Shown piece by piece: positions 3,687-54,041 of a stretch of DNA of 64,000 nucleotides (within the stretch, counting starts at the first letter, position 1; each line of letters begins with the position of its first letter). The notes beneath the pieces are model-generated. The model did not search any database, had not been told where the DNA came from, and saw only the letters and a list, made by a program, of their open reading frames with translations. The translations under genes and the position numbers were made by a program. Source of the DNA: Caballeronia concitans (lineage in GTDB: Bacteria; Pseudomonadota; Gammaproteobacteria; Burkholderiales; Burkholderiaceae); the NCBI RefSeq assembly GCF_001544615.1, contig NZ_FCNV02000004.1, positions 186,001 through 250,000 of the forward strand, written 5' to 3'.

Positions 3687-4133
3687 ATGACCGATGTACC
3701 GAGCGACAAGTGGCAATACCAGGTCCGCATTCGCCTAAGCCCCCGATACGCGGACCTCGCGCGCAAAGATCCGTCCAACGCGGAACTATCATCAATCAAC
3801 ACGCTGCTCGTCAAATACCAAGCCTCGTTGAACTGCCAGTTCGATGCATTCGCCGACTACGTCGCGCAAGCCGAACGAGAAGGCACGGAGCATTACCCGC
3901 TGTACCGATGGACACGCGAGACCATCGAAGATCCCGTCAAAAAGGCAAAGTATCTGGAGGCGTTCACGCTATACGTGCATGACGATGAGGTCTACGACAA
4001 GGCCATCGCCGACGCGCTCGAAACCGACCTCCACGGACTCGCGCGCCATTGGAACGGGGCCATCACCGACATTCGCAAGTTCGATACGAACCCCGCGCAT
4101 AACCCGCAGCCGCCGTCCTACGACAAGCGCTGA
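3687..4133 (+). CDS. Conserved hypothetical protein, 148 residues
   Basis: A soluble acidic protein without signal peptide or membrane segment. The ATG is preceded by AAAGGAGA at good spacing, supporting it as a real gene. The sequence is mostly helical with aromatic-rich stretches (NCQFDAFADYVAQAE, EHYPLYRWTRETIEDP, FTLYVHDDEVYDKA) and a Pro/Asn-rich tail. I do not recognise the family. It stands alone between the glycosylase gene and a TetR regulator; the 12-bp gap before that regulator's longest possible frame leaves weak support for co-transcription. Confidence 0.6.
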   Translation: MTDVPSDKWQYQVRIRLSPRYADLARKDPSNAELSSINTLLVKYQASLNCQFDAFADYVAQAEREGTEHYPLYRWTRETIEDPVKKAKYLEAFTLYVHDDEVYDKAIADALETDLHGLARHWNGAITDIRKFDTNPAHNPQPPSYDKR

Positions 4134-4172
4134 AGTGCGTATGGTTGACGGTGCGGGCATCGCAAGATAAGG

Positions 4173-4192
4173 TCTTGGTCAACCAACCAAGA
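4173..4192. promoter_or_regulatory. 7-6-7 inverted repeat, candidate TetR operator
   Basis: TCTTGGT and ACCAAGA form perfect 7-bp arms around a 6-bp centre (CAACCA), ending 22 bp before the GTG proposed as the start of the TetR-family gene. The position and symmetry suit autoregulation by that protein. The dyad would lie inside the coding region if translation began at 4145, which favours the downstream start. Confidence 0.6.
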
Positions 4193-4213
4193 TCACGATG
4201 CGAGGCAGCCAGC

Positions 4214-4780
4214 GTGCAGGATCGTCGACAAACCATTCTCGAGGCCGCCCTCGCCACCCTGCGCGAAGAAGGCTATTCGGGCTTCACGCAGCCGCGCGTC
4301 GCCAAACGCGCGGGCGTGCGGCAAAGCCACCTCACTTACTATTTCCCCACGCGTCTCGAACTGATCGAAGCGGTCGCGCGCGCCGCCGTCAACGGTCAGC
4401 TCGACGCACTCGACGCCTTCGCGGGAGAGACGTCGCCGAAGGTCACGGCGGCGTCCATTGCCAACGTCGCCATGCGGCACGAGAACACACGCGTGCTGAT
4501 GGCGCTCGCGCAGGCTTCCGACGAAGAGCCTTCGATACGCAGCCTGTTTCGCGAGTTCGCGGATGCCATCGCTCTGCGCATCACACGCATGCTCGAATCG
4601 ATGGGACTCGCCGTGAGCAAGGAGCACGTCGCGATGATTCATGCGCTCGTCGTGGGACTCGCGGTGGTCGAACTCGCGGTCGGACGCAGTGACGGCAAGC
4701 GGCGTGCGAGCGCGGCCATCGAAGCCCTTTTCGCGATGCTGCCGCGCACCGGCGAGCGCACCGTTCAACCCTCGCGCTAA
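4214..4780 (+). CDS. TetR-family transcriptional regulator
   Basis: A 188-residue repressor from GTG at 4214. The helix-turn-helix occupies about residues 4-50 (RRQTILEAALATLREEGY, then RVAKRAGVRQSHLTYYFPTR). The rest is the all-helical ligand-binding domain with no recognisable effector motif. The frame extends upstream to 4145, but that would place the dyad at 4173-4192 and a non-conserved N-terminus inside the gene, so the GTG is chosen. No enzyme or pump is adjacent in the same operon, so the target beyond itself is unknown. Confidence 0.85.
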   Translation: MQDRRQTILEAALATLREEGYSGFTQPRVAKRAGVRQSHLTYYFPTRLELIEAVARAAVNGQLDALDAFAGETSPKVTAASIANVAMRHENTRVLMALAQASDEEPSIRSLFREFADAIALRITRMLESMGLAVSKEHVAMIHALVVGLAVVELAVGRSDGKRRASAAIEALFAMLPRTGERTVQPSR

Positions 4781-4952
4781 ATTGCATCGTTGCCGCGATT
4801 GCATCTTGCGTTTTGCATATCGCATTCGATTGCACCGTCAGCGTGACATCGCGTGAAACAAGTCTGAGCGAGACTCTGCGAAAGCCTTCTCCTATAGTGA
4901 GCACGTCGCCACACACAACGCCACGTGGCCCACGCACCGAGAGGACGCTTCC

Positions 4953-5771
4953 GTGAACGACAGATCGAATTTTGCATGCAAGCTTGTTTCATCCGCTGCG
5001 AAGACGGGACTGCGCCGGACGCTGATCGTCGTCAGTGCCGCGGCGCTCGCGCTGTCGAGCGGTTCAGCCTTCGCGGGCTGGGGGCGCGGCGGCACTGCTT
5101 ATACCGGGCGTGGCGAATATAACGGCGCACATTTCGGCTCGTGCGGCGGCGGGAGCTGCTCCCACGCGGGCGGCGTGATGAACCCGTGGGGCGGCGTCGC
5201 GACGAACTCAGGCACGGTCACGCGCACCGCGCCGGGCCAGTTTTCGAACGCCGGCACCGCGTACGGCCCCAACGGACGCTCGATGCAGCACGCGGGCGAC
5301 ACGAGTTGCGCGGGCGGATCGTGCTCGCACACCGGCAGCATGACCGGCCCCAACGGCAACACCGCAACCGGCGCGGACACCGTCACGCGCAGCGCGCCGG
5401 GTCAGTTTTCGTCCTCCGGCTCCGTGACCGGGCCGTACGGGAACACCTCGACGCACAGTGCATCCACCAACTGCGCCGGTTACACGTGCAACCGCTACGG
5501 CACGGTCAACACAGCCAGCGGCGGCACCGTCGCGCATTCTGGCAGTGCGACGAGCGTCGCGCCGGGCGTCGTCGTGACCTCGGGCACCGCCGTCGCGACG
5601 ACCGGTTCGCATGGCACGACGGTGATCGCGGGCAGCGCCACGACGTCGAGCGCGGTGGTCGTGATGCCGCCGCCACCCGCCACCGTATATGTCGCGCCCG
5701 CGCCGGCGCCCGCCGTATGGGTTCCCGGCCACTGGGCCGGCGCCGTCTGGATTCCGGCGCACTGGGCCTGA
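4953..5771 (+). CDS. Secreted Gly/Ser/Thr-rich repeat protein with paired cysteines
   Basis: A 272-residue exported protein. A long n-region leads to a hydrophobic core (LIVVSAAALALSSGSAFAG), with cleavage likely after AFA near residue 41. The mature part has degenerate repeats: CGGGSCSHAG and CAGGSCSHTG, TVTRTAPGQFSNAG and TVTRSAPGQFSSSG, then NCAGYTCNRYG, giving three Cys-x4-Cys pairs. The C-terminus ends with VWVPGHWAGAVWIPAHWA, a doubled W-x-P-x-H-W motif found in many proteobacterial envelope proteins. The start is GTG after GAGAGGA. Function unknown; cell-surface or metal-binding roles are conceivable. Confidence 0.8.
   Translation: MNDRSNFACKLVSSAAKTGLRRTLIVVSAAALALSSGSAFAGWGRGGTAYTGRGEYNGAHFGSCGGGSCSHAGGVMNPWGGVATNSGTVTRTAPGQFSNAGTAYGPNGRSMQHAGDTSCAGGSCSHTGSMTGPNGNTATGADTVTRSAPGQFSSSGSVTGPYGNTSTHSASTNCAGYTCNRYGTVNTASGGTVAHSGSATSVAPGVVVTSGTAVATTGSHGTTVIAGSATTSSAVVVMPPPPATVYVAPAPAPAVWVPGHWAGAVWIPAHWA
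4968..4981. repeat. TTTTGCATGC motif inside the 5' end of a gene
   Basis: AATTTTGCATGCAA lies 15 bp inside the proposed reading frame of the secreted repeat protein. It matches 13 of the 16 bases of the palindrome at 1456-1471. Its presence in a poorly conserved signal-peptide n-region may mean the motif was tolerated or acquired there. Confidence 0.4.
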
Positions 5772-5917
5772 ATGCAAAATGCCAAAGCGTCGTCGCCGCC
5801 GTAGTCGTTGCCATCGACCCGGCGGCTGGCGCACACTGCGAGTCAACGCCGCCGCCAGGGAAGGCTCGACATGCTCAGTGTCTCGTTCGACGTAGACGGA
5901 TCGAAGGCAATCCGCTC

Positions 5918-7273
5918 ATGACGCGGGATCGCATGCAGCGTCCGCATCTGCCGCAGGATCACGCGAAAGGCGTCCTGCACGACCTCACATGGACGGTCGG
6001 CCCTGTGTTGCTGGCCTTTGCGCTGGCGACCGCGCTCGTCATCTGGCTCGTCGATCCCGCGCCGCCCAAGACCATCACGATGAGCGCCGGCCAGCCCGAC
6101 AGTTCGCTTTATCAAACCGCCCAGGAATACGCAAAGATCCTCGCGCGCAACGGCATCACATTGAAGGTGCTTCCCTCCGATGGCTCCGTGCAGAACCTGG
6201 AACGCCTCCTCGACCCGAAACAGAAGATCGATCTCGCGCTCGTGCAGGGCGGCATCGCGACTAAAGAGCAGGCATCGTCGCTGATGTCGCTCGGCAGCGT
6301 GGCGTACGTGCCTATCGTCGTGTTCTATCGCGGCAAAGGGCTCACGTTGCTGTCTCAGCTGGAAGGCAAACGCATCGCGATCGGGCGCGAAGGCAGCGGC
6401 ACACGCACGCTGTCGCTGAAACTGCTCGAAGCAAACGGCATTACGCCTGGCGGCAGCACGCAGCTTCTTCCAACCGACGGCCTGCAAGCTGCAACGGAAC
6501 TCGTCAGCAACGAAGCGGACGCCGTGTTTCTTAGCGGCGATTCGGCCACGCGCGGGCTCATGTTGCGCCTGCTCAAGGTGCCCGGCATATCGGTGATGGA
6601 CTTCAACGAAGCGAGCGCTTATACGCGGCTCTTTCCGTATCTCGACGATATCGAATTGCCGCCCGGCGTGCTCGATCTGGGCCGCCGCATTCCGCCGGCG
6701 ACCGTGCATCTCATCAGTCCGACGGTTGAGTTGGTTGCGCGCACGAACCTGCATCCCGCGTTATCGGATCTATTGATCGAAGCCGCGCAGGAAGTGCATG
6801 GCACGGCGGGATTGCTGCAGCGCGCGGGTCAGTTTCCGAGTCCCGTCGCGCATGAGTTCCCAATCAGCGAGGACGCGAGCCGCTATTACCGTTCCGGCAA
6901 GAGCTTTCTTTATCGAACGCTGCCGTTCTGGCTCGCGAATATTGCGGATCGCGCGCTCGTGTTGCTGCTGCCCGTCGCGGTGCTTGTTTTTCCAGCGTTG
7001 CGGGTCGTACCCGCGTTATATCGATGGCGCGTGCGCTCGCGTATCTATCGCTATTACGGTGCATTGATTGCAATCGAACGCGGTGCAATGCATATGTCGA
7101 GCGATGAAGAGCGCCGTGCGCTGCTGGTCGAACTCGACCACATCGAAGAATCACTCGATACGCTCAAGCTGCCGCTTGCCTATACCGATGCGCTCTATGT
7201 GCTTCGCGAGCATATCGGCTTCGTGCGTTCGCGATTGAGCGGCTCTGTACGCAGGGAACACAGCACCGTTTAG
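5918..7273 (+). CDS. Membrane-anchored TAXI-family (TRAP solute-receptor-like) protein
   Basis: A 451-residue protein. A transmembrane segment at about 27-46 precedes a periplasmic TAXI-type binding domain (TITMSAGQPDSSLYQTAQEYA; VPIVVFYRGKGL; GKRIAIGREGSGTRTLSLKLL; EADAVFLSGDSA), then a second segment at about 345-368 (ALVLLLPVAVLVFPALRVVP) and a cytoplasmic helical tail of about 80 residues. Classic TAXI receptors are free periplasmic proteins feeding a TRAP permease; this one is anchored at both ends and no permease gene is near. The ligand is unknown. It ends 12 bp before the phospholipase D-like gene, so the pair is likely an operon. Confidence 0.83.
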   Translation: MTRDRMQRPHLPQDHAKGVLHDLTWTVGPVLLAFALATALVIWLVDPAPPKTITMSAGQPDSSLYQTAQEYAKILARNGITLKVLPSDGSVQNLERLLDPKQKIDLALVQGGIATKEQASSLMSLGSVAYVPIVVFYRGKGLTLLSQLEGKRIAIGREGSGTRTLSLKLLEANGITPGGSTQLLPTDGLQAATELVSNEADAVFLSGDSATRGLMLRLLKVPGISVMDFNEASAYTRLFPYLDDIELPPGVLDLGRRIPPATVHLISPTVELVARTNLHPALSDLLIEAAQEVHGTAGLLQRAGQFPSPVAHEFPISEDASRYYRSGKSFLYRTLPFWLANIADRALVLLLPVAVLVFPALRVVPALYRWRVRSRIYRYYGALIAIERGAMHMSSDEERRALLVELDHIEESLDTLKLPLAYTDALYVLREHIGFVRSRLSGSVRREHSTV

Positions 7274-7285
7274 GAGGCGATGCCC

Positions 7286-8854
7286 ATGCTCAAGCAAGCG
7301 CTGACGAGATTGCATTGCGCGATCATCATGCTCGCTTTGATGACGGCATGCGCGAGCCTTCCGCCTCAGAGCGGCCGCACGCCGAGCCACGCTTCCACAC
7401 AGACAACCGATACGCGCTTAAGCAAAGCCTTTAATGCAAGTGAATTGAATCATCCCGGCGAGAATGCATTTCATCTCTTGTACGACGGAATGGATGCACT
7501 CGTCGCTCGCGTCGTGCTTTCCGAAACCGCAGAGCGATCGCTCGATGTCCAGTACTACATCTGGCACGACGATCTCACTGGCCGTGCGATGGCCGCATCG
7601 GTATTGCGCGCGGCGGATCGCGGCGTGCGCGTGCGATTATTGCTCGACGATCTCGGCACCAACGCCGACGACAATCTCCTGCTCGCGCTCGCCTCGCATC
7701 CGAACATACAGGTACGGCTTTTCAATCCGGTGGCGAATCGTACTTTCAAGCGGCTCGGCTCCGCAGTCGAGTTCTTCAGAGTGAACCGGCGCATGCATAA
7801 CAAGTCGCTCGTCGCCGATAACCAGGCGGCGATTCTCGGCGGCCGCAATATCGGCGACGAATATTTCGGCGCGTCGAGCACGGTGGCATTCGGCGACCTC
7901 GATGTGCTCGTGCATGGCCCTGTCGTGCGCGAAGTATCGGATGCGTTCGATCTCTACTGGAATTCCGATGCGGCCTATCCCATCGACAATCTCATGGGCC
8001 GCCGTGCGGATACCAACTCACTCGCAACATATCGAAGCCGGCTCGATGCGTATCTGCTTTCGGAAACTCACTCGCCGTATGTCGCGCAGGCAAGTCAACG
8101 TATCGCGCAAGCGATCGAATCGCACGATGCATCGTTCGTGTGGGGCAAAGCTACTTTGCTCTACGACGATCCCGCCAAAATCACTCGCAAGCCGGACGAC
8201 AGCGAAGGCCGCCTCATGTCGCGGTTCAGGGCGCTCAAGCTCGAGCCGCAGCATGAATTGCTGATTGTCTCGCCCTACTTCGTGCCGCGCGAAGCGGGCG
8301 TCAAGTGGCTGCAAGCGATGACTGCGCGCGGCGTACGCGTGACCGTGCTGACCAATTCTTTAGCCGCAACCGATGTAGCCGCCGTCCACGCGGGATATCA
8401 GCGCTATCGCAAGGACATGCTTGAGGCCGGCGTGCGGCTCTATGAACTCAAGCCTGTGGCTTCCAGCGATAAAAATGACAAAGAAAATAAAACGATGTTC
8501 GGCTCGTCGAAGGCCTCGTTGCATGCGAAGACCTATGTATTCGACCGCGAACGCATCTTTATCGGCTCGATGAATCTGGACCCGCGCTCCGTCGAACTGA
8601 ACACGGAGATAGGCGTCTATTGCGAGAGTCCGCAAGCGGCGCAGCAAGTGGCGGATGGTATCGGGACGAATATCGATCGTATTGCGTGGCGTGTGGAACT
8701 GCAGCCGAATGCCGATGGCGGTCAACGCATGGTATGGATAGACACTGACGCGAACGGCGCGGTCACAACGCTGGAGAAAGAGCCCGATGTCTCGACGTTC
8801 AGGCGCGCGACGATATGGATGCTGGGCCTTTTGCCGATCGAGTCGCAACTATGA
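7286..8854 (+). CDS. Phospholipase D-family lipoprotein (cardiolipin synthase-like)
   Basis: A 522-residue protein beginning with a lipoprotein signal whose lipobox is MTACAS. It has two HKD motifs: HNKSLVAD (His171) followed by GGRNIGDEYF, and HAKTYVFD (His413) followed by GSMNLDPRS. These form the catalytic pair of phospholipase D enzymes, including ClsC/YmdC-type cardiolipin synthases. AGGAGG at 7272-7277 is 8 bp from this ATG and only 2 bp from another in-frame ATG at 7280, so 7286 is preferred. It probably acts on phospholipids from the envelope side. The preceding TAXI-like gene is probably co-transcribed. Confidence 0.88.
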   Translation: MLKQALTRLHCAIIMLALMTACASLPPQSGRTPSHASTQTTDTRLSKAFNASELNHPGENAFHLLYDGMDALVARVVLSETAERSLDVQYYIWHDDLTGRAMAASVLRAADRGVRVRLLLDDLGTNADDNLLLALASHPNIQVRLFNPVANRTFKRLGSAVEFFRVNRRMHNKSLVADNQAAILGGRNIGDEYFGASSTVAFGDLDVLVHGPVVREVSDAFDLYWNSDAAYPIDNLMGRRADTNSLATYRSRLDAYLLSETHSPYVAQASQRIAQAIESHDASFVWGKATLLYDDPAKITRKPDDSEGRLMSRFRALKLEPQHELLIVSPYFVPREAGVKWLQAMTARGVRVTVLTNSLAATDVAAVHAGYQRYRKDMLEAGVRLYELKPVASSDKNDKENKTMFGSSKASLHAKTYVFDRERIFIGSMNLDPRSVELNTEIGVYCESPQAAQQVADGIGTNIDRIAWRVELQPNADGGQRMVWIDTDANGAVTTLEKEPDVSTFRRATIWMLGLLPIESQL

Positions 8855-8884
8855 GGCGAGCTTGCGACTCGATCGTCGATTGGC

Positions 8885-9862
8885 TTATTTGAAGCCCGCG
8901 ACCGCATGCGGCACATACGGCGCTTCGAGCTGCGCGATCTCGTCGGCCGTGAGATTCAGCGACAGCGCCGCGACCGCATCGCTGACGTGATTCGGCTTCG
9001 ATGCCCCGATGATCGGCGCACTGACGGGCGACTTTTGCGCGACCCATGCAAGCGCCACTTGAGCGCGCGGCACACCACGCGCCTTTGCGACCGTTGCCAC
9101 GGCCTCGACCACGGCTTTGTCTGCATCATGCGTCTGGTACAGCGTGCTGCCGAACGCATCGGTCTGCTGACGCTCGCTCGTCGCATCCCACTCGCGCGTA
9201 AGACGGCCGCGCGCGAGCGGGCTCCACGGCAACACGCCAATGCCCTGATCCTTGCATAGCGGTAGCATCTCGCGCTCTTCTTCGCGATAGAGCAGGTTCA
9301 AGTGATTCTGCATCGTCTTGAACTCGGTCCATCCCTTTGCGCGCGATGTATAAAGCGCTTTGCTGAATTGCCAGGCGTACATCGACGACGCACCGATATA
9401 ACGCGCCTTGCCCGCCTTGACGACATCGTGCAACGCTTCCAGTGTCTCTTCGATCGGCGTCGTGTAGTCCCAGCGGTGAATCTGATAAAGATCGACGTAA
9501 TCGGTGCCGAGGCGCCTCAGGCTGTTATCGATTTCATTGAAGATCGCCTTTCGCGAGAGGCCCGCGCCATTGGGACCGGGCCGCATGCGATTGAATACCT
9601 TCGTCGCGATCACGATGTCATCGCGCTTCGTCATTTCGCGCAATGCACGACCGACGATCTCTTCCGACGTGCCGTCGGAGTAAGTATTCGCGGTGTCGAA
9701 GAAATTAATGCCTGCATCCAGCGCCTGCTGGATGATGGGACGGCTCTGCTCTTCATTGAGCGTCCAGGGATGCGTGCCGCGTTCAGGCACGCCGAAGGTC
9801 ATGCATCCAAGGCACAGCCGCGACACGTCCAGGCCGGTCGTGCCGAGTTTCACGTAGTCCAT
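8885..9862 (-). CDS. Aldo/keto reductase
   Basis: A 325-residue NADPH-dependent oxidoreductase with a complete family core: LGTTGLDVSRLCLGCMTFG at the N-terminus, the catalytic Asp and Tyr in FFDTANTYSDG, Lys in IATKVF and His in YQIHRWD, then WSPLARGRL and the C-terminal cofactor region SAPIIGASKPNHV. This is the YajO/Tas-like subgroup. An AAGGAG site 7 bp upstream of the ATG fixes the start. It is convergent with the phospholipase gene and stands alone, so its carbonyl substrate is not indicated. Confidence 0.92.
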   Translation of the reverse strand: MDYVKLGTTGLDVSRLCLGCMTFGVPERGTHPWTLNEEQSRPIIQQALDAGINFFDTANTYSDGTSEEIVGRALREMTKRDDIVIATKVFNRMRPGPNGAGLSRKAIFNEIDNSLRRLGTDYVDLYQIHRWDYTTPIEETLEALHDVVKAGKARYIGASSMYAWQFSKALYTSRAKGWTEFKTMQNHLNLLYREEEREMLPLCKDQGIGVLPWSPLARGRLTREWDATSERQQTDAFGSTLYQTHDADKAVVEAVATVAKARGVPRAQVALAWVAQKSPVSAPIIGASKPNHVSDAVAALSLNLTADEIAQLEAPYVPHAVAGFK

Positions 9863-10036
9863 CGGGGAATCTCCTTGCCGTCGACTGCTTTTCTGAGGAT
9901 GTGCACGAAGGCTTTGGTGTCTTCATGCGCGAGAGACGAAAAGCATAGACATTAGCGCAGGTTGGCTGCTCTTGCTTGTCTTACAGTCGTTAAGCAACGC
10001 AATCATTACTTGCAAGGAATCGATGCAAACTTACTC

Positions 10037-10060
10037 GCACAGCGCCGCGCGGCGCTGTGC
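10037..10060. terminator. Strong hairpin downstream of the MFS gene
   Basis: GCACAGCGCC and GGCGCTGTGC form perfect 10-bp arms around GCGC. It lies 18 bp beyond the stop of the minus-strand MFS gene. The T-rich side (GTTTTCTCT) follows it on the plus strand, while on the minus strand only a short GTTT follows, so it may act as a transcript-end stabiliser rather than a classic intrinsic terminator. Confidence 0.5.
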
Positions 10061-10077
10061 GTTTTCTCTAGCGAAGC

Positions 10078-11421
10078 TTAGGAGCGCGCGGGCTCGCCCT
10101 CCTCCATGTCATGTCCGTGCGAAATGGCCTCCAAGGACGGATCGTGATGAAGCAACAGGACCGCCGCTACACCGACCATGCCCGCGCCCGCGAGGCAAAG
10201 CAGGCCCGCACCGAAGCCGCCCGTGCTGTCCTTGATCCAGCCCATTGCGTAAGGCCCGAAGAAGCCCGCGAGATTGCCGAGTGAGTTGATCGCCGCGATC
10301 CCGCCCGCCGCAGCCGCACCCGAGAGGAACGATGCAGGCAGCGTCCAGATCACCGGCAGACAGCCAAAGATACCGAAGCCTGCAATCGACAGCGCAATCA
10401 TCTTGAGCACCGGATTGTCGAGGCCCGCCGACGCAGCGATGCCGCCCGCCGCGACCATCAGCGCGATGGCAACGTGCCAGCGTCGTTCGAGCTTGCGATC
10501 CGAATGACGGCCCCAGAGCACCATGCTGACGACACCGACTGCATACGGCAAGGACGTCACGAAGCCCGTCTGAAGATTCGTCAGTCCGAACGCCTTGACG
10601 ATCTGCGGCAAGAAAAAGCTCAAGCCGTAATTGGTCGCATTTGCCCCGAAATAGATCAGCGCGATGGCGAGCACGCGCGGATTGAAGAGCGCTTCTTTCA
10701 CGCTAAACGAATGCACCGACTCGCGATGCGCGCGTTCATGCGCTTGCCGATTGACGAGCCAGTTACGTTCGTCGTCTGCGAGCCAGTGTGCGTTCGCGGG
10801 CTTGTCCGTGAGATAGAAGAACACGACGAACGCGAGGATGAGCGCGGGAAACGCTTCGATCAGATAAAGCCACTGCCAGCCCTGCATTCCGCCGATGCCG
10901 TCCATTTGCAGCAACGCACCCGAGATGGGGCCGCCGATCACGGTGGACAACGGAATAGCCGCCATGAAATAGCCGACGACGCGCCCGCGATATTTCGCCG
11001 GGAACCACAGCGTCAACAGGTAAATGATGCCGGGGAAGAAGCCCGCTTCCGCGATGCCCAGCAACACGCGCAGTCCATAGAACACATATGCGTTCGACAA
11101 GCCCGTTGCTTGCGCGATATGCGGAATGTACGCCATCAGCGCGGCGAGAATGCCCCACGTGAACATGATCCGTGCGATCCACTTGCGCGCGCCGAATCGT
11201 TCGAGCAACAGGTTGGACGGGACTTCGAAAAAGAAATAGGCGATAAAGAAAATGCCCGCACCAAAGCCAAAGGCGCTCGCCGAAAAGCCGAGCGCCTTGT
11301 TCATTTGCAGTGCAGCAAAGCCGACGTTGACGCGATCGAGATAGGCGATGAAGTAGCAGAGAATCAGAAACGGCACGAGACGTAGCATCACGCGCTTCAT
11401 GGTGCGAGTTTCAAGGTCCAT
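10078..11421 (-). CDS. MFS transporter, anion:cation symporter family
   Basis: A 447-residue permease with 12 predicted membrane segments. YLDRVNVGFAALQM in the first helix region, FFFEVPSNLLLERFGARKW after helix 2, and GIAEAGFFPGIIYLLTLWFP are hallmarks of the ACS group that carries sugar acids, tartrate or aromatic acids with protons. The ATG at 11421 follows GGAGGAGA; a TTG one codon upstream is less likely. It lies on the same strand as and about 155 bp downstream of the lactonase gene, separated by a hairpin, which suggests uptake of a uronate or aldarate. The substrate is inference. Confidence 0.87.
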   Translation of the reverse strand: MDLETRTMKRVMLRLVPFLILCYFIAYLDRVNVGFAALQMNKALGFSASAFGFGAGIFFIAYFFFEVPSNLLLERFGARKWIARIMFTWGILAALMAYIPHIAQATGLSNAYVFYGLRVLLGIAEAGFFPGIIYLLTLWFPAKYRGRVVGYFMAAIPLSTVIGGPISGALLQMDGIGGMQGWQWLYLIEAFPALILAFVVFFYLTDKPANAHWLADDERNWLVNRQAHERAHRESVHSFSVKEALFNPRVLAIALIYFGANATNYGLSFFLPQIVKAFGLTNLQTGFVTSLPYAVGVVSMVLWGRHSDRKLERRWHVAIALMVAAGGIAASAGLDNPVLKMIALSIAGFGIFGCLPVIWTLPASFLSGAAAAGGIAAINSLGNLAGFFGPYAMGWIKDSTGGFGAGLLCLAGAGMVGVAAVLLLHHDPSLEAISHGHDMEEGEPARS

Positions 11422-11546
11422 CAATGTCTCCTCCGTTATAGGGAACAGGCAGATCGTTGACTTGCAATCGACTTGCGCAGCCTACTCTTTACGGAGGAAT
11501 TGCATAACTGGTGTTTAGCCTGTGTTTTGCCGAAAAACACCGGCAA

Positions 11547-11566
11547 GAGGCGCTTCCACGCGCCTC
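11547..11566. terminator. Hairpin between lactonase and MFS genes
   Basis: GAGGCGC and GCGCCTC form 7-bp arms with a 6-bp loop, 10 bp after the lactonase stop on the minus strand; a second potential hairpin (GTGTTTT/AAAACAC-like) follows near 11522-11540. No immediate T-run is present, so this may be a partial terminator or processing site that lowers expression of the downstream transporter. Confidence 0.35.
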
Positions 11567-11576
11567 CTTGTGACGT

Positions 11577-12485
11577 TTATGCGACCGGTAACATTCCGGC
11601 GTAGCCGGGTTCCGGTAATCCTTGCACGCCGGGCCGCAAAGCGAACACGGAGCCGTCGTTGTCGGTGGCGTTGGAAGCGGGTCGAATCGATGTCACATAG
11701 AGCGTGGAAAGATCGTCTCCGCCGAATGCGCACATCGAAGGCTTGACGGCCGGCACCGCGACGGTGCGATCGAGCTTGCCCTCCGGCGTGAAGCGCAAGA
11801 GGCAGCCGGCATCGTTTGCGCAGGTCCAATAGCAGCCGTCGGCATCGACCGCCGCGCCATCCGGACGCCCCATGTGATGATTCAGATCCGCGAAGAGGCG
11901 ACGGTCATGCGGCATGCCCGTGTCGGTATCGAGATCGAAGGCCCAGATCAGGCGCCGCTGCGGATGTGAATCGGACAGATACATGATCGCGCCATCCGGC
12001 GAAAACGCGAGCCCGTTCTGCGTGATGAGCCCGTCGACGATCGGCGCGGACAGCGTGCCGTTTGCATCGAAGCGATAGAGCGCGCCTGCGGTACTCGCCT
12101 GCGCCATGTCCTGCACCATCGTGCCGGCCCAGAAGCGGCCCTGCCGGTCGCAGCGGCCATCGTTGAAGCGCATGCCGGGTGCATCGAAGCGCGGCGCGGC
12201 GAGCTTCGTCACACGCACATCGCCCGCGTCTTGCAGCGTCACCGCGAAGAGCCCGCTTTCCATGCCGGCGACGATGCTGCCCGCCGCATCGAATGCAAAA
12301 CACGCGACCTGCTCGGGCAGCGTCCATTCGCTGCGCTGTCCGCTTTCGGGGCGCAGCCGCACGATGCGCCGCGCGGGAATGTCGACCCAATACAGCGCGC
12401 GGTCTTTTGCATGCCAAACAGGGCACTCGCCGACAGCAGCGCGCCCTGCCGCTTCGATCCGCTCCACGCGAGGCGCGCTCGTCAT
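11577..12485 (-). CDS. SMP-30/gluconolactonase-family lactonase
   Basis: A 302-residue six-bladed beta-propeller lactonase. Family features are the N-terminal VGECPVWHAKDRALYWVDI (metal-ligand Glu), FNDGRCDRQGRFWAGTM, ITQNGLAFSPDGAIMYLSDS and GRPDGAAVDADGCYWTC, which carry the Asn and Asp ligands for a divalent metal. Its start overlaps the stop codon of the uronate dehydrogenase gene by 4 bp. In this context it most likely hydrolyses the aldarolactone made by that enzyme, giving galactarate or glucarate. The specificity is inferred from context, not from diagnostic residues. Confidence 0.9.
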   Translation of the reverse strand: MTSAPRVERIEAAGRAAVGECPVWHAKDRALYWVDIPARRIVRLRPESGQRSEWTLPEQVACFAFDAAGSIVAGMESGLFAVTLQDAGDVRVTKLAAPRFDAPGMRFNDGRCDRQGRFWAGTMVQDMAQASTAGALYRFDANGTLSAPIVDGLITQNGLAFSPDGAIMYLSDSHPQRRLIWAFDLDTDTGMPHDRRLFADLNHHMGRPDGAAVDADGCYWTCANDAGCLLRFTPEGKLDRTVAVPAVKPSMCAFGGDDLSTLYVTSIRPASNATDNDGSVFALRPGVQGLPEPGYAGMLPVA

Positions 12486-47798: not shown

Positions 47799-48635
47799 AT
47801 GAGCACACCCGTCATCGAGGAGGTGACGCTCGCCGAGCGCGCCTATCGCATTCGCCGCAACGCCCTTCTGATGGGCGAAGTGCAAGGTCAAGGCTACATC
47901 GGGCAGGCGCTCGATATCGCCGATGTCCTCGCCGTCGCTTACTTCGGCGCGATGAACTATCGCCCCGAAGATCCGGAATGGGAAGGCCGCGACCGCTTCC
48001 TGCTGTCGAACGGTCATTACGCAATCGCGCTGTACGCCGCGCTTTTCGAAGCCGGCATCCTTCCGCAAGACGAACTCGAAACCTATGGCAGCGACGACAG
48101 CCGCCTGCCGATGTCCGGCATGGCGAGCTACACGCCCGGCATGGAGATGTCCGGCGGATCGCTCGGACAGGGGCTCACGATCGCGGTCGGCCGATGCCTG
48201 GGCCTCAAACGCAAGCAGTCGAAGTCCTTCGTCTACACGCTGTTTTCGGATGGCGAGCTGGACGAAGGCGCGATCTGGGAAGGGCTGATGTCGGCGGCGC
48301 ACTGGAAGCTCGACAACCTGATCGCGATGATCGACGTGAACAATCAGCAAGCCGATGGCCCATCGACGCAGATCATGGCGTTCGAGCCGCTCGTGCCGAA
48401 GCTCGAAGCGTTCGGCTGGTACGTGCAGCGCGTGAACGGCAACGACATCGACGCGGTGAAGGAAGCCTTCGACAACGCGCGCAATCTGAAGGAAGCGAAG
48501 CCGCGCATCATCGTGTGCGATACGAAGATGGGCTGCGGCGTGCCGTTCCTCGAACAGCGCGAGAAGAACCACTTCATCCGTGTCGATGCACATGAATGGA
48601 AGCTCGCGCTCGAAGCACTGAAAGCGGGCAAATAA
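47799..48635 (+). CDS. Transketolase, N-terminal (thiamine-diphosphate binding) subunit
   Basis: A 278-residue subunit. FLLSNGHYAIALYAALFEAG, GMEMSGGSLGQGLTIAVGRCLG and the ThDP motif FSDGELDEGAIWEGLMSA...DNLIAMIDVNNQQADG are diagnostic of the transketolase PP domain. It is roughly the first half of a full transketolase (about 660 residues); the second half is the next gene. AGGAGA precedes the ATG. Split transketolases occur in catabolic operons and archaea; here it joins an SDR and a permease. Confidence 0.93.
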   Translation: MSTPVIEEVTLAERAYRIRRNALLMGEVQGQGYIGQALDIADVLAVAYFGAMNYRPEDPEWEGRDRFLLSNGHYAIALYAALFEAGILPQDELETYGSDDSRLPMSGMASYTPGMEMSGGSLGQGLTIAVGRCLGLKRKQSKSFVYTLFSDGELDEGAIWEGLMSAAHWKLDNLIAMIDVNNQQADGPSTQIMAFEPLVPKLEAFGWYVQRVNGNDIDAVKEAFDNARNLKEAKPRIIVCDTKMGCGVPFLEQREKNHFIRVDAHEWKLALEALKAGK

Positions 48636-48680
48636 CTTTGCATGGGCACGAGCGGACTCGGGCCCACACAGGAGACAAGC

Positions 48681-49679
48681 ATGAGCACTATCGAAAAGAA
48701 GCCGCGTTTGAAGACCTCGGCGATGATCGCATCGATTGCGGGCGAAGGACAAGTCACGCGTTCCGCGCCGTTCGGCCACGCGCTTGCCGAACTGGCGCGC
48801 ACGAAGACGAACGTCATCGGCATGACGGCCGATCTCGGCAAGTACACCGACCTGCATATCTTCGCGAAAGAATTTCCCGAGCGTTACTATCAGATGGGCA
48901 TGGCCGAGCAACTGCTGATGGGCGCGGCGGCGGGCTTCGCACATGAAGGCGCGCAGCCGTTCGTCACGACGTATGCCGTGTTCGCCACGCGCCGCGCGTA
49001 TGACTTCATCCATCAGACCATCGCGGAAGACAATCTGGATGTGAAGATCGTCTGTGCATTGCCGGGCCTCACGACGGGCTACGGGCCGAGTCATCAGGCG
49101 GCGGAAGATCTCGCACTGATGCGCGCGATGCCGAACATGACCGTGATCGATCCGTGCGATGCGCTCGACATCGAGCAGATGGTGCCCGCCATTGCCGCGC
49201 ACAAAGGCCCGGTCTATGCGCGTCTGTTGCGCGGCAACGTGCCCGCCGTGCTGGACGAATACGACTACACGTTCGAACTCGGCAAGGCGAAGCTGCTGCG
49301 CGATGGCGCGGATGTGCTCGTGATCGCGTCGGGCATCATGACCATGCGTGCGCTCGAAACCGCGAAGGCGCTCGAAGCGGATAACGTGGATGTCGCGGTG
49401 CTGCACGTGCCGACCATCAAGCCGCTCGACACCGAGACCATCATTCGCGAAGCGAGCCGTTCAGGCAGGCTCGTAGTGGTCGCGGAGAATCACACGGTCA
49501 TCGGCGGACTGGGCGAAGCCGTCGCGACGACGCTACTGAGCGCGGGCGTCACGCCGGCTTACCGACAAATCGCGCTGCCCGATGCGTTCCTCGATGCAGG
49601 CGCGCTGCCGACGCTGCACGACCGCTATGGCATTTCGACGAACATGATGGCGAGCACCATCAAAGGCTGGCTCGCCTGA
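48681..49679 (+). CDS. Transketolase, C-terminal (pyrimidine-binding) subunit
   Basis: A 332-residue partner subunit. YQMGMAEQLLMGAAAGFAHEG contains the catalytic Glu that activates ThDP, followed by PFVTTYAVFATRRAYDFI, GPSHQAAEDLALMRAMPNM and the C-terminal domain (VVVAENHTVIGGLGEAV). GGAGA precedes the ATG at 48681, and the gap to the N-subunit gene is 45 bp. The pair would form a heterotetramer that moves a two-carbon unit from a ketose to an aldose. It converges on the DUF2894 gene with a 4-bp gap. Confidence 0.93.
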   Translation: MSTIEKKPRLKTSAMIASIAGEGQVTRSAPFGHALAELARTKTNVIGMTADLGKYTDLHIFAKEFPERYYQMGMAEQLLMGAAAGFAHEGAQPFVTTYAVFATRRAYDFIHQTIAEDNLDVKIVCALPGLTTGYGPSHQAAEDLALMRAMPNMTVIDPCDALDIEQMVPAIAAHKGPVYARLLRGNVPAVLDEYDYTFELGKAKLLRDGADVLVIASGIMTMRALETAKALEADNVDVAVLHVPTIKPLDTETIIREASRSGRLVVVAENHTVIGGLGEAVATTLLSAGVTPAYRQIALPDAFLDAGALPTLHDRYGISTNMMASTIKGWLA

Positions 49680-49683
49680 TGCA

Positions 49684-50241
49684 CTAACGCGCCCCACTGC
49701 GCGCGGACTTCTTACCGCGCGGCGCATCACGACCGACAGGCGCATTCGCGCCTGTCATCGCTTCCATCCAGGAAAGCGTATCGACGTAAGAAAGGAAGTG
49801 CTGAAGATACGCAGGCGATACTTCGCGCATCAACGCCAAAGACCGATGCACGAGGCTGCTCGAATTGAGTGGCCCCGCATTTTTCGGCACCTGTTCCAGC
49901 GATTCGCGCAACTGACGCTCCGCGCTGACCTTCGACCAAACCGCGCGAAAGAATTCGAGTAGTTCGGCGTGCGAAGCGTATGACGCCGCGTGGTGCGTCA
50001 TGTCGTCGAGCAAACGCGCGAGCGGTGTCTTGTCGGCCTGCGCTTCATGTGTACGCGCAGCGGCTTCGACCTCGCGCGCATAGTCTTGCATGAGCGCTGA
50101 AAGCCTTGCATCGATGATGCGCCGCGCTTCGCCTTCATGCGTCATCGCGCGGCGCGCTAAAGCGTCGATCAACGCGAAACGCACGGGATTCACGCGATCT
50201 TCGCCGCGTGCACGCCATGCATCGATGATCGCGTTATCCAT
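49684..50241 (-). CDS. DUF2894-like protein, last gene of the MotAB-like operon
   Basis: A 185-residue soluble helical protein: MDNAIIDAWRARGEDRVNPV, SALMQDYAREVEAAARTHEA, LLEFFRAVWSKVSAERQL, NSSSLVHRSLALMREVSPAYLQHFLSYVDTLSWME in several blocks, and a Lys/Arg-rich tail. I assign it to DUF2894 from memory of this conserved Burkholderia gene order. It starts 8 bp before the end of the OmpA-like gene, so expression is coupled. No enzymatic motif is visible; the final helices might dock on the membrane complex. Confidence 0.7.
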   Translation of the reverse strand: MDNAIIDAWRARGEDRVNPVRFALIDALARRAMTHEGEARRIIDARLSALMQDYAREVEAAARTHEAQADKTPLARLLDDMTHHAASYASHAELLEFFRAVWSKVSAERQLRESLEQVPKNAGPLNSSSLVHRSLALMREVSPAYLQHFLSYVDTLSWMEAMTGANAPVGRDAPRGKKSARSGAR

Positions 50242-50881
50242 GCCGCTTCACCGGTGCGTTCGTCGGACGCGGCACCGGCGATATCTCCACGCGACGATTC
50301 TTCGCGCGGCCTTCGTCATCGGCGTTGGAACTCACCGGCTGCTCCGAACCGAAGGCGGCCGCGAATACCGACGACGGCGGCACGCCCGCATCGATCAGCG
50401 CGCGCGTGACGGTCAACGCGCGCTTCGCCGACAACTCCCAGTTATCCGCGAAACGGCGATTGCCTTCGCGCACTTGCTGGTCGTCGGCGAAACCGCTGAC
50501 CATCAGAATCTCTTCATGCGACCCGAGGTACGCGGACAGCGGCCCGGCTAGCGTCTTCAAGAGATCGCGTCCCTGCGGCTGCAACTGGTCCGAATTCAAC
50601 GCGAACAAGACGCTGCCGCTAATGCCGATGCGCCCGTTCACCAGCGTCACGCGCCCCGACGCGAGCGGTCCCGCGAGCGCCTCTTCGAGTGTCTTGCGGC
50701 GCTGCGTTTCCTGCTGCTTTTCCTTGACGGCCTGTTCGAGCTTCGTGGACAACTGCAATTGCACGCCGATGACCGCGACGAGAATCAGCACGAACGCGCC
50801 GAGCAACACCGACATCAGGTCCGCGAACGCGGCCCAGATGGGCGCGGCGGCTTCGGCGCCGACATCGAGTTCGTCGTTCAT
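50234..50881 (-). CDS. MotB/OmpA-like stator protein
   Basis: A 215-residue protein. One membrane helix (IWAAFADLMSVLLGAFVLIL) carries an Asp in the place of the proton-binding Asp of MotB and ZorB. A short coiled linker follows (LSTKLEQAVKEKQQETQRRK), then an OmpA-like peptidoglycan-binding domain: GSVLFALNSDQLQPQGRDLL, LMVSGFADDQQV, NWELSAKRALTVTRAL and KNRRVEISP. It overlaps the stop of the MotA-like gene by 4 bp. It is the likely partner that anchors a proton-driven complex to the wall. Confidence 0.85.
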   Translation of the reverse strand: MNDELDVGAEAAAPIWAAFADLMSVLLGAFVLILVAVIGVQLQLSTKLEQAVKEKQQETQRRKTLEEALAGPLASGRVTLVNGRIGISGSVLFALNSDQLQPQGRDLLKTLAGPLSAYLGSHEEILMVSGFADDQQVREGNRRFADNWELSAKRALTVTRALIDAGVPPSSVFAAAFGSEQPVSSNADDEGRAKNRRVEISPVPRPTNAPVKRHG

Positions 50882-53343
50882 TCGCGCGCTCCCGCCAGCT
50901 CGCGTTGCGCCGCGATCTGCTGCAAGTTCTCGATGATCTGCTTCTGCGACATCATGCTGAGATCGATCACTTCTCTCGCCTGCGCGACGTAATACGCGAG
51001 CTGTTCGTCGCTGCGTGCGAGCGTCTTGTCGAGCGCGGTTTCAATGCGCTGCAGATGCGCAACGAGCGTCTCGTTCGATGCGCCGAACGCATCCACCGCG
51101 GCGCCGAAGGCTTCGCCGAGACTCGCCACTTCCACCGCGCTGCCCGTGATGTGCGCGGCCACCGCGCCGATCTTCCCGCTCTCGGCTTCGACCTTCTCGG
51201 TGAACTGCGTGCCCGCGCGCGTGAGCATGTCGGCGGACGTCGCGACAAGCGCATCGATCGCCACGCGCTGTTCGTTCGACGCATGATTGACCGCATCGAG
51301 CAGCGTCTCGACGGTGGCGAGCAAGCGGCTGCGCTCGTCGAGCATCGCGGTGTCGCGGATCATTGAATCGGAGAGCTTCTGGCGCAATTCGGCGATGACT
51401 TCCGCCGCGGCCTTCGGCGCTTCGGATGCGGCCTGCACGAGCCGCTCGATTTCGGCGATGGTGCCGCTCGCGTGCGAACGCGCTTCCTCGGACATCTCGC
51501 GTGCGGTGCGTGCGAGCGTCTCCAGAATCTCGCGCTCACGCTGCTCGGCCAGCGCGCCCGACTGCTGCCATTCCTCGCGCAATGTCGCGGCCATCGCGGT
51601 GAGCGCGTCGGTCCATGCCGACAGGCGCGCTTCGTTGGCCGACGCCGCGTCCGTGCGCAGCTTCGCGTGGGCGTCGTCGATCGAACGCAGCAGCGAAGCC
51701 GAATGCTGTTCGAAGCGCTGCGCGGCGGCGTCGAGTGCGTCGCGATGCTGCATGGCGAGTTGCTCACCCGAGCGCTGTTGCTCGGTGAGTGCGTTGCGCC
51801 ATGCGTCCGACATGCCCGCCGACGTGCTTTCGAGCCGCGACGAAAGCGCATCGAGCAGATGCGTCGAGCGTGCTTCGATGCTCGCGGCGAAGCGATCCAG
51901 CGATGCGCCCGCTTGGCTTGCGAGCGCGGCGCTCGTCTCATCGTGCTTCTCGACCGACTGACTCAATGTGTCCGCGATCTTCGCGACCGAAGCGTGCAGT
52001 TCGCCCGACACATCGTTCAAACGCGCGGCGACGTTATCGACGAGATTCGTCGAGCGTTGCTCGAATGCGAGTGCGAAGCCATCGAGCGATGCGCCCGCCT
52101 GCGTGACGAGCGCGGCGCTTGCCTGTTCGTGCTTTTCAAGCGACTGCCCGAGCGTATCCGCGACCTTCGCGACCGATAAGTGCAATTCACCGGAGACATC
52201 GTTCAAACGCGCGGACACGTTATCGACGAGGCTCGACGAGCGTTGCTCGAATGCGAGTGCGAAGCGATCCAGCGACGCATCCATCTTGCCGACGAGCGAT
52301 TCGTTGGCCGCCTGATGCCCCGCCAGCGAGCGGTTCCAGATGTCCGCGACATTCGCCGTCGAGGCTTCGAAGCCGCTCGACAAGCCATCGAGTTGCCGCG
52401 CCACCGCGTGTTCGATGTTCGCGTGCAACGAAGCCGTTTCGCGCGCGATGCCGTCCATCGTCGCCTGCATGACGGGCTGCAATGCGGCGCTCGCGGCGCG
52501 CGCGCTGTCGGCCACGCTTTGCTTCAACGACAGTTCCACCGACGTCGCCAGCCGCCGATACGCCGTCTCCGTGTTCGCATGAAACGCGGTCTGATTCGCG
52601 ACTTGCCGCTCGTTCGCGGCCACGCTTTGCTGTTCGATGGCGGTCATCATCGCGTTGAGACGATCGACCAGCTTCGGCATGATCTCGGTCTGACGTTGCA
52701 ACAGCCTGAAGCTCTCCTCGCGCTGATGCGACTGCGTGAAAGTGCGCAGCGTCGTCGCGATCTTTGCGTCCAGCGCCTGCGCGACGTGCAGCCTTTCGCG
52801 TCGGCATAGCGTGGACAGCAGGCCCAGCATCGCCGATGTCGCGACGCCCGCGATCGACGTGCCGAACGCAAAGCCAAGCCCCGTCACCGGCGCGGCGAGC
52901 GATGCGCGGATCGCCGCGAGATCGGTCGAGCTTTCGAGCGCCGCGCCCGTGCCGCGCAGCGTCGCGACCATGCCGAGCAGCGTGCCGAGCATGCCGAGCA
53001 GCACGAGCAGACCCGCGAGATACGGCGCGAGCGCCGGTCCGGGCAACGCAATGCGCTCGCCCTCGATGCGCAGACGCACCGCATTGCGCAGGCTCGCGGG
53101 CACCTGATCGAGCCACACGCCGAGGCTTTTCGGCGCACTCGTCGATTGATCGATGGCAACGGCGAGCGCCTGCGTCGTCTGTTGGTAACGCTGCAATTCC
53201 CACGCGCCTGCGAGATAGCACGCACCGATCACGAGCGTGACGGCGAACGCGAGCGCGTTCGAGCCGATATAACCAATGGCAATACCGCAGACGGCCAGCA
53301 GGCCCGCCAGGAAGACGGCTAGATTCAGAAGATATCGGGGCAT
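50878..53343 (-). CDS. MotA/ExbB-like membrane protein with a long coiled-coil tail (DUF802)
   Basis: An 821-residue protein. Four membrane segments lie in the first ~180 residues; the last two (YLAGLLVLLGMLGTLLGMVA and GLGFAFGTSIAGVATSAML) match the pore helices of MotA/TolQ/ExbB proteins. The remaining 640 residues are alpha-helical coiled coil, Ala/Glu/Gln/Arg-rich, with a near-exact 62-residue tandem repeat (residues 354-415 and 416-477). This layout, short MotA core plus long cytoplasmic tail, recalls ZorA of Zorya anti-phage systems. The ATG lies 5 bp after the DUF3348 stop; a GTG at 53367 would add 8 residues. DUF802 naming is from memory. Confidence 0.8.
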   Translation of the reverse strand: MPRYLLNLAVFLAGLLAVCGIAIGYIGSNALAFAVTLVIGACYLAGAWELQRYQQTTQALAVAIDQSTSAPKSLGVWLDQVPASLRNAVRLRIEGERIALPGPALAPYLAGLLVLLGMLGTLLGMVATLRGTGAALESSTDLAAIRASLAAPVTGLGFAFGTSIAGVATSAMLGLLSTLCRRERLHVAQALDAKIATTLRTFTQSHQREESFRLLQRQTEIMPKLVDRLNAMMTAIEQQSVAANERQVANQTAFHANTETAYRRLATSVELSLKQSVADSARAASAALQPVMQATMDGIARETASLHANIEHAVARQLDGLSSGFEASTANVADIWNRSLAGHQAANESLVGKMDASLDRFALAFEQRSSSLVDNVSARLNDVSGELHLSVAKVADTLGQSLEKHEQASAALVTQAGASLDGFALAFEQRSTNLVDNVAARLNDVSGELHASVAKIADTLSQSVEKHDETSAALASQAGASLDRFAASIEARSTHLLDALSSRLESTSAGMSDAWRNALTEQQRSGEQLAMQHRDALDAAAQRFEQHSASLLRSIDDAHAKLRTDAASANEARLSAWTDALTAMAATLREEWQQSGALAEQREREILETLARTAREMSEEARSHASGTIAEIERLVQAASEAPKAAAEVIAELRQKLSDSMIRDTAMLDERSRLLATVETLLDAVNHASNEQRVAIDALVATSADMLTRAGTQFTEKVEAESGKIGAVAAHITGSAVEVASLGEAFGAAVDAFGASNETLVAHLQRIETALDKTLARSDEQLAYYVAQAREVIDLSMMSQKQIIENLQQIAAQRELAGARE
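51913..52284 (-). repeat. 186-bp tandem repeat within the coiled-coil gene
   Basis: Two adjacent 186-bp units (52099-52284 and 51913-52098) encode 62-residue segments with about 47 identical residues, both containing FALAFEQRS and ARLNDVSGELH. A third, more diverged unit follows from 51912 (ASLDRFAASIEARSTHLLDAL). In-frame expansion or contraction by recombination would change tail length without breaking the frame. Confidence 0.85.
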
Positions 53344-53348
53344 AGCGT

Positions 53349-54041
53349 TCAGTGAGCGGCTTGACACGCCGCGAGCAAACCTTCGACCGGTTGAAAACGT
53401 ACGTCCAGTTCAGCGAGCAGGACGCTTTGCATGTCCTTCTCGAATGCGTCCAGCCATGCGGACGGCGCGCCCTCGGCTTCCTGCGCGCGGCGCATGCGCT
53501 CGAAATGCTTGCCGAGCAGCGCGGGCACTTTCGCGAACAGCGTGCGCTCGCGGGCGAAAAGCGCCTGCTCCATCACGGCATCGACGACAGCCAGCCGCGC
53601 CGTGCGATCCGACTTCGCGGCCAGCACCGCGCGCAGCCGGCCGCGCAACGCGCCGATGTCGGATTCCATCGTCTGTTGCAGGGACAGATAACGCTGGCGA
53701 TACACCGCGTAGTCGACCGGCACCTCGACGATCGGCGTCTGTACCGGCGCACGATGCCGCGCGGGCGCGGCCGTCTTCGCCGGAGCGATGGCGTTCGCGA
53801 GCGACGCGCGCACGCGCGCGCAGGCCTCGCGTTGCGCGGCCCCTGCGGATCGCGCGCCGGAGATGGCGGGCGGATCGCCGCTGAGCGCGGTCGAGAGCGC
53901 GATGGCGTCGGTCCAGCCGAGCCACTGGCTCAGCCGGTCGGACAGCGACGCGCCGGGTTCATCGACGTCGAGATCGGCAAAGCGCGCCAGCAGGCGCACG
54001 AGCGCCGGGCCGCTGGCCGCCGTGCGCTTCCTGGATTGCAC
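53349..54041 (-). CDS. DUF3348-like protein, first gene of the MotAB-like operon
   Basis: A 230-residue soluble protein from a GTG at 54041. ALVRLLARFADLDVDEPGAS and LSDRLSQWLGWTDAIALSTAL begin the conserved part, then a Pro/Ala linker and a helical C-half (QRYLSLQQTMESDIGALRGRL, AKSDRTARLAVVDAVMEQAL, AWLDAFEKDMQSVLLAELDVR). The assignment to DUF3348 is from memory of the usual Burkholderia gene order. No catalytic motif is visible. It heads a compact operon of four genes, divergent from the acetyltransferase gene. Confidence 0.72.
   Translation of the reverse strand: MQSRKRTAASGPALVRLLARFADLDVDEPGASLSDRLSQWLGWTDAIALSTALSGDPPAISGARSAGAAQREACARVRASLANAIAPAKTAAPARHRAPVQTPIVEVPVDYAVYRQRYLSLQQTMESDIGALRGRLRAVLAAKSDRTARLAVVDAVMEQALFARERTLFAKVPALLGKHFERMRRAQEAEGAPSAWLDAFEKDMQSVLLAELDVRFQPVEGLLAACQAAH

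Follow-up and report, generated by a model that had tools for sequence, protein, structure and literature searches.

A four-gene operon on the minus strand of a Caballeronia genome raises the question of what a MotA/MotB-like pair of membrane proteins does together with two further conserved partners. MotAB, ExbBD, TolQR and ZorAB are proton-driven stators, and the original prediction, made from a stretch of 64,000 nucleotides (the window), described the operon as a related but uncharacterised motor with two soluble partners of unknown type, for which defence was only one option. Based on sequence comparisons, the operon is very probably an intact anti-phage operon of Zorya type III (zorF-zorA-zorB-zorG). 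The system itself is already known; what may be new is its family-level pattern, quasi-core but exchanged, and the block-wise rod of ZorA.

Operon layout and assignment to Zorya type III

A frame check confirmed the predicted arrangement of the four genes, which run from 54041 to 49684 (Table 1) with no internal stops. A 5-bp gap separates zorF and zorA, while zorA and zorB overlap by 4 bp and zorB and zorG by 8 bp; the gap is counted from the zorA ATG, and a start at the GTG at 53367 would instead lengthen zorA by 8 codons, into overlap with zorF. Beyond the operon's end, at a distance of 4 bp, a transketolase pair runs convergent to it (47799-49679), one gene for the N half and one for the C half. 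A divergent GNAT gene lies upstream, and the neighbours also include metabolic genes. The nearest named relative of ZorB belongs to C. grimmiae (97%).

Table 1. Genes of the operon and segments of ZorA, in window coordinates
Feature	Position	Strand	Description
zorF (DUF3348)	53349..54041	-	230 aa, GTG start; all-alpha predicted fold
zorA	50878..53343	-	821 aa: MotA/ExbB-type core, rod with DUF802 repeats, conserved C-terminal tip
ZorA membrane core	52699..53343	-	about residues 1-215
ZorA rod	51106..52698	-	residues 216-746, with 62-residue internal repeat
ZorA C-terminal tip	50881..51105	-	last 75 residues, RSDEQLAYYVAQAREVIDLS region
zorB	50234..50881	-	215 aa: Asp21 (AFADLM) in its one N-terminal helix; OmpA-type domain at residues 92-196
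zorG (DUF2894)	49684..50241	-	185 aa: helical model, NxGPLNxxxLVHR patch, basic C-terminus

The predicted DUF3348-DUF802-OmpA-DUF2894 make-up also held, with each of these four Pfam matches above its cut-off: DUF3348 in ZorF (281.5 bits, cut-off 25), DUF802 in four stretches of ZorA (130.5 bits, cut-off 22.6), OmpA in ZorB (64.1 bits, cut-off 27.2) and DUF2894 in ZorG (176.6 bits, cut-off 25). The Pfam profile MotA_ExbB stayed under its cut-off in ZorA (17.8 versus 22.9 bits), as did MotB_plug in ZorB (13.2 versus 24 bits). Therefore, the MotA/MotB-type assignment rests on the ZorA and ZorB models and on the match of the core profile to the structure 8vvn_C.

The best PADLOC models were those of type III for all four proteins. 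ZorA scored 1277 bits with ZorA3 and 37 with ZorA1, ZorB scored 385 bits with ZorB3 and 64 with ZorB1 (other types at most 64 bits), and the DUF3348 and DUF2894 models gave 302 bits for ZorF and 242 bits for ZorG. The PADLOC-DB 2.0 models (PDLC00652-00658) exchange the names ZorF and ZorG relative to PMC8565338 and PMC11890865; we follow the papers, in which DUF3348 is ZorF and DUF2894 is ZorG.

Zorya type III was named by Payne et al. 2021 for zorAB genes flanked by DUF3348 and DUF2894 genes (PMC8565338), is described by its genes in Mariano et al. 2025 (PMC11890865) and is listed in a Variovorax paper. The label uncharacterised is wrong: DUF3348 and DUF2894 are ZorF and ZorG, the markers of type III, and the partners of supposedly unknown type are its defining genes (PMC8565338). 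Nor is the reading of defence as just one option among several supported: in E. coli, a type III operon from Stenotrophomonas nitritireducens significantly lowered plaque formation by at least one phage (PMC8565338). The original prediction was right that ZorC, ZorD and ZorE are absent, both from the operon and from its neighbours, and a search of the whole genome G000 with the EH_Signature (ZorC) profile found nothing; it erred in reading this absence as weakening the case for defence, as type III has ZorF and ZorG instead.

We compared the proteins across 132 rows, which represent 129 distinct operons (duplicates L007/L103, L013/L059 and L030/L116). The set is not random: 38 loci were picked by hand among the matches in the genus and family, 13 come from the 20 matches in the phylum, and 80 are the top-ranking of 352 relatives of this ZorB. 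The Asp at the predicted proton site, within AFADLM, is Asp21. The original prediction had named a non-conserved Asp as one ground for refutation, but the Asp is present in all 132 ZorB rows: as Asp21 in 131 (128 of the 129 distinct operons), and in the remaining row, L026, in a first frame that still reads AFADLM ahead of a frameshift further on. ZorB is 208-225 residues long in the 132 rows.

When the ZorA core profile was searched against the PDB, the single chain under E 0.01 was 8vvn_C (E 4.9e-5), and the N-terminal region of ZorB matched 8qyd_F (1.6e-4) and 8vvn_B (2.4e-4); we take 8qyd and 8vvn to be ZorAB structures. The best PDB match of the OmpA domain was MotB (3khn, 2.5e-17). A single-sequence search with the whole ZorA returned no stators from the PDB, only apolipophorins aligned to the rod (E 0.003 and 0.024). 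Together with the PADLOC ZorA3 and ZorB3 matches, the 8vvn_C match makes the predicted kinship with ZorAB sound. The length of 8vvn_C, 696 residues, fits the Shewanella ZorA of PMC11890865. In all 25 aligned ZorA cores, residues T121, T162 and S163 are unchanged, a sequence pattern consistent with the ring of Ser/Thr residues reported for ZorAB and MotAB (PMC11890865). For types I and II, the same work determined ZorAB structures, which are ion-driven 5:2 motors that carry a rod; ZorB Asp24, binding to the wall and the rod itself proved important in these types (Mariano et al. 2025, PMC11890865).

The two partners are predicted to be helical. The AlphaFold model of ZorF is all-helical (pLDDT 79, pTM 0.73), as is that of ZorG, in which the arrangement of the helices is not reliable (pLDDT 74, pTM 0.38). 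Enzyme-family profiles from Pfam and NCBIfam matched neither protein, leaving no recognisable effector signature, and profile searches of the PDB gave best E-values of 0.025 for ZorF, to a coiled-coil construct, and 0.2 for ZorG. Kinship of ZorF and ZorG with each other or with ZorC was rejected (profile probabilities 2.2%, 0.7% and 0.4%, with 10 ZorC-like proteins as the ZorC set). In ZorG, the last 20 residues carry a net charge of at least +4 in 128 of 132 rows, and the motif NxGPLNxxxLVHR is invariant across 54 aligned sequences.

Length and repeats of the ZorA rod

The long coiled tail predicted for the MotA-like protein is present, at 606 residues after a core that we cut at 215, rather than the 640 claimed. 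Across loci, ZorA measures 643-1229 aa (129 of the 132 rows; L011, L036 and L075, each under 600 aa, were left out of the length counts), with 428 to 1014 residues after the core. The rod would span 64 to 152 nm if all post-core residues formed one continuous helix (0.15 nm per residue). Mean pairwise identities are 0.73 for the core, 0.58 for the rod, 0.76 for the last 75 residues, 0.77 for ZorB, 0.57 for ZorF and 0.52 for ZorG; judged by these values, the ZorA tip is about as conserved as the core. A profile of the tip had no relative in the PDB (best E 0.18).

Rod length differs even between close relatives. Among 125 loci, 51 have a ZorA at least 30 residues longer or shorter than that of the closest relative, as judged by core and ZorB; the count was 46 of 122 when duplicates were removed and the nearest relative was chosen by all four proteins. 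Where the nearest relative was less than 10% distant (67 loci), 22 still showed a length difference of at least 30 residues. We aligned 12 ZorA pairs, the relatives being chosen for differing length. With costs that favour long gaps, every pair aligned with one gap (51, 51, 55, 58, 80, 87, 87, 131, 160, 160, 174 and 174 residues) and with 86-97% identity outside it; with ordinary gap costs, 10 of the 12 pairs had one gap and both 160-residue gaps split into 80 + 80. As aligned, the members of these 12 chosen pairs differ in length by a single block or by two of equal size, each spanning approximately whole helix turns and placed between the conserved core and tip.

Repeats are common within the tails: 87 of 129 (86 of 126 distinct) contain a 40-residue window that recurs elsewhere in that tail with 50% identity or more, compared to 0 of 129 shuffled tails. 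The ZorA length equals 698+87n (n 0 to 3, within one residue) in 53 of 126 distinct rows and, without the 697-699 class, in 28 of 101 versus about 3 in 87 by chance, a figure that relatedness inflates. Hydrophobic residues of the ZorA tail (216-821) recur with a period of 3.66 residues, versus 3.5 for a heptad. For 17 distinct repeat distances, several of them multiples of others so that the effective number is lower, the best fit to whole helix turns occurs at 3.635 residues (mean cosine 0.875); random sets, each scored at its own optimum, stay below 0.55 in 95% of cases. At the period of the hydrophobic residues the fit is weaker (0.44, matched by 0.5% of random sets).

As a control, we used presumed type I ZorA proteins encoded beside ZorC-like genes in the same family (16 loci, L201-L216; 652-844 residues), which were picked by position and size. 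Comparing seven of these with their nearest relatives revealed blocks of 80, 66 and 44 residues between pairs that are 36-55% identical, and no block in three other compared pairs. The block differences involve L203, L209, L210 and L214. Presumed type I rods also differ by blocks, and block change is therefore not confined to type III; the type III length range is wider, however, and its blocks are seen between much closer relatives. A literature search on tail length returned no paper. One natural ZorA pair (785 versus 872 residues, 95% identical elsewhere) differs by one block, which makes a role for rod length testable.

Distribution and inheritance in the Burkholderiaceae

In the survey of gene order proposed in the original prediction, 115 of the first 118 loci showed hits to all four genes, collinear and on a single strand, an agreement beyond chance; zorF was not found in the other 3. 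In other families, the order, read by eye, is kept in 13 of 14 loci, and the 14th is a weak hit that lacks these genes altogether. Distances calculated for the core, tip, ZorB, ZorF and ZorG correlate at 0.85-0.91 (125 of 132 loci), indicating that the four genes largely travel together.

DUF3348 is found in 48 of 58 Caballeronia whole genomes. All 47 genomes of 5.5 Mb or more have it, and so does 1 of the 11 that measure at most 5.1 Mb (one of the 11 is only 60% complete). The 10 small genomes without it would fit reduced symbionts. In the family sample, 171 of 249 genomes have DUF3348, usually as one match per genome. It is present in 159 of the 171 genomes that reach 5.0 Mb and in 12 of the 78 below this size, a split counted by hand with rounded sizes. 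The frequency is 37/119 and 30/120 in two other families and 20/398 in a phylum sample. One of these 20 matches, in G370, is false, lying below the cut-off at 21 bits in a genome with none of the four genes. The control domain EH_Signature, which we take to be the ZorC domain, is found in 17 of the same 249 genomes.

We then built one tree from ZorA core, ZorB, ZorF and ZorG and another from GyrB for 28 genomes from 11 genera (28 of 30 used; G107 and G196 have partial or missing GyrB, and the frameshifted ZorB of G239 was left blank), and compared the two. Among the eight genera with at least two members, seven are monophyletic in the GyrB tree and two in the Zor tree, while the patristic distances correlate with r 0.59, a value that 0 of 2000 permutations reached. 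AU tests on Zor reject monophyly for g10 (p 0.0009), g20 (0.008) and all genera jointly (0.0002), and do not reject it for g1, g3, g11 (0.07), g13 and g25; the seven single tests are uncorrected, and g20 becomes borderline on correction. In fast searches, g24 is monophyletic and the joint monophyly of GyrB is not rejected (p 0.135). The genus g20 is also the one that is not monophyletic in the GyrB tree, without support. The AU tests thus reject strict vertical inheritance for two genera and jointly. According to these gene trees, transfer is clearest for g10 and for all genera jointly, with many branches unresolved. Taken together, the genome counts and trees suggest that Zorya III is quasi-core in large genomes of the family yet exchanged between genera. 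In Payne et al., each new type occurs in multiple phyla, with a genus-level patchiness that suggests horizontal transfer (PMC8565338).

Gene neighbours are mostly unshared beyond Caballeronia-type loci. In 24 of 118 loci, the flank that was retrieved includes the transketolase N-half; these are 21 Caballeronia-type loci (three of them named Burkholderia) and 3 Paraburkholderia loci, in which the gene is on the opposite side at a distance of kilobases. At L007 (G010, 4001-11630; the same operon as L103, Caballeronia glathei), a more distant Zor lineage (ZorB 80%) sits beside the window's LysR, SDR and MFS genes, inverted in order and orientation; the transketolase pair was not seen there, and the contig ends about 550 bp past the MFS gene. 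Rearrangement or local replacement is possible. Broken copies, due to either decay or assembly error, occur at L011 (G056; ZorF and ZorA in pieces), L036 (G270; short ZorA) and L026 (G239; frameshifted ZorB).

Carriage by phages was rejected: of 50,697 phage records, 15 gave a match at E 1e-5, all at less than 60% identity and none extending across 80% of ZorB. ZorB matches at E 1e-30 occurred in 27 of 72,556 plasmid records, 7 of the 27 being called mobilizable by MOB-suite; the 25 of these 27 records that were listed are each 588,872 bases or longer and are taken as secondary replicons.

Mechanism, rival explanations and known systems

Type III has no nuclease that we could recognise. By analogy with types I and II, five ZorA and two ZorB subunits would form an ion-driven motor tethered to peptidoglycan. 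A phage that disturbs the wall would open the ion flow and cause ZorA to turn or rearrange, and the rod would pass the signal into the cytoplasm. More weakly, we infer that the conserved ZorA tip may be a docking end and the rod a spacer of adjustable length. ZorF and ZorG might dock at the tip as an adaptor that replaces the ZorCD or ZorE nuclease module, and the basic ZorG C-terminus might touch nucleic acid or membrane. Candidate final steps are a recruited host nuclease, phage DNA binding or an ion leak. Our tentative overall picture, possible rather than probable as a whole, is that Zorya III would be a standing, quasi-core immune motor of the Burkholderiaceae whose alleles are swapped between genera; its modular rod would change by whole-turn coiled-coil blocks between close species while the tip stays fixed and, with no nuclease of its own, a ZorF-ZorG adaptor would bring the tip to nucleic acid or a host enzyme.

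The last of these steps has a rival that leaves the type III identity untouched, in which ions leaking through an open ZorAB would act as the effector, the role of ZorF and ZorG being only to gate this leak. Payne et al. propose that ZorF and ZorG regulate ZorAB and cite a proton-channel, abortive-infection model (PMC8565338); the two proteins also belong to no enzyme family that we could match and are unrelated to ZorC. Recruitment of a nuclease module has been proposed for types I and II (PMC11890865), however, and is the better match for a ZorA tip that is conserved at a great distance from the membrane and for a ZorG with a basic C-terminus. We consider the leak somewhat unlikely, and it stays a serious rival for the final step. 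A different objection concerns function as a whole. Near-universal presence is unusual for a defence system and counts against an anti-phage reading; the family might have co-opted Zorya III for a housekeeping role in the envelope or nucleoid, with incidental phage protection. The size-dependent presence in the family and in Caballeronia, the usual single copy and the rarity of EH_Signature would all agree with this, as would a CRISPRi screen in B. cenocepacia K56-2, a host whose list includes a Zorya III: with phage Bcep176 only, and with too few guides for 3 of 34 genes, the screen found no fitness effect of any predicted defence gene (PMC12584637). In favour of the anti-phage reading, the same source reports that the first one or two Zorya III genes of B. 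cenocepacia change expression during infection (PMC12584637). Against a housekeeping role stand the smaller number of monophyletic genera in the Zor tree than in the GyrB tree, the AU rejections (though monophyly of five other genera was not rejected), the mostly unshared neighbours, the 12 large family genomes without DUF3348 and the lower frequencies in two other families, and we judge it improbable.

It is far less probable still that the operon encodes an ordinary flagellar or Tol/Exb-type stator. The resemblance of the OmpA domain to a MotB structure would suit this identity, but profiles and partners led us to reject it: MotA_ExbB and MotB_plug fall under their cut-offs, ZorB passes the NCBIfam equivalog PRK09040 (389 bits, cut-off 194), which is a hypothetical-protein model and not MotB, hundreds of residues follow the ZorA core, and the linkage to ZorF and ZorG is fixed. 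A defence locus that is near-universal in large genomes yet exchanged provides a useful case for separating core immunity from housekeeping.

Compared to the flagellar stators MotAB and PomAB, the operon shares a MotA-like core, an Asp helix and an OmpA-like domain, but lacks a plug above cut-off and has a long rod and two extra conserved partners. With Zorya types I and II (ZorABCD and ZorABE; PMC11890865) it has in common the stator core, the ZorB Asp, the OmpA-type domain and the long cytoplasmic rod, while lacking ZorC, ZorD, ZorE and any recognised nuclease or helicase. All four genes and the type III models are shared with Zorya type III of Payne et al.; beyond sequence divergence we found no difference, the host here being Caballeronia and the tested system coming from Stenotrophomonas nitritireducens. 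Type III Zorya is also conserved within the species Ralstonia solanacearum, where it is among the highly conserved anti-MGE systems, or HCADS (PMC13064858). There the conservation is within a species, whereas here it extends to the family level with exchange between genera.
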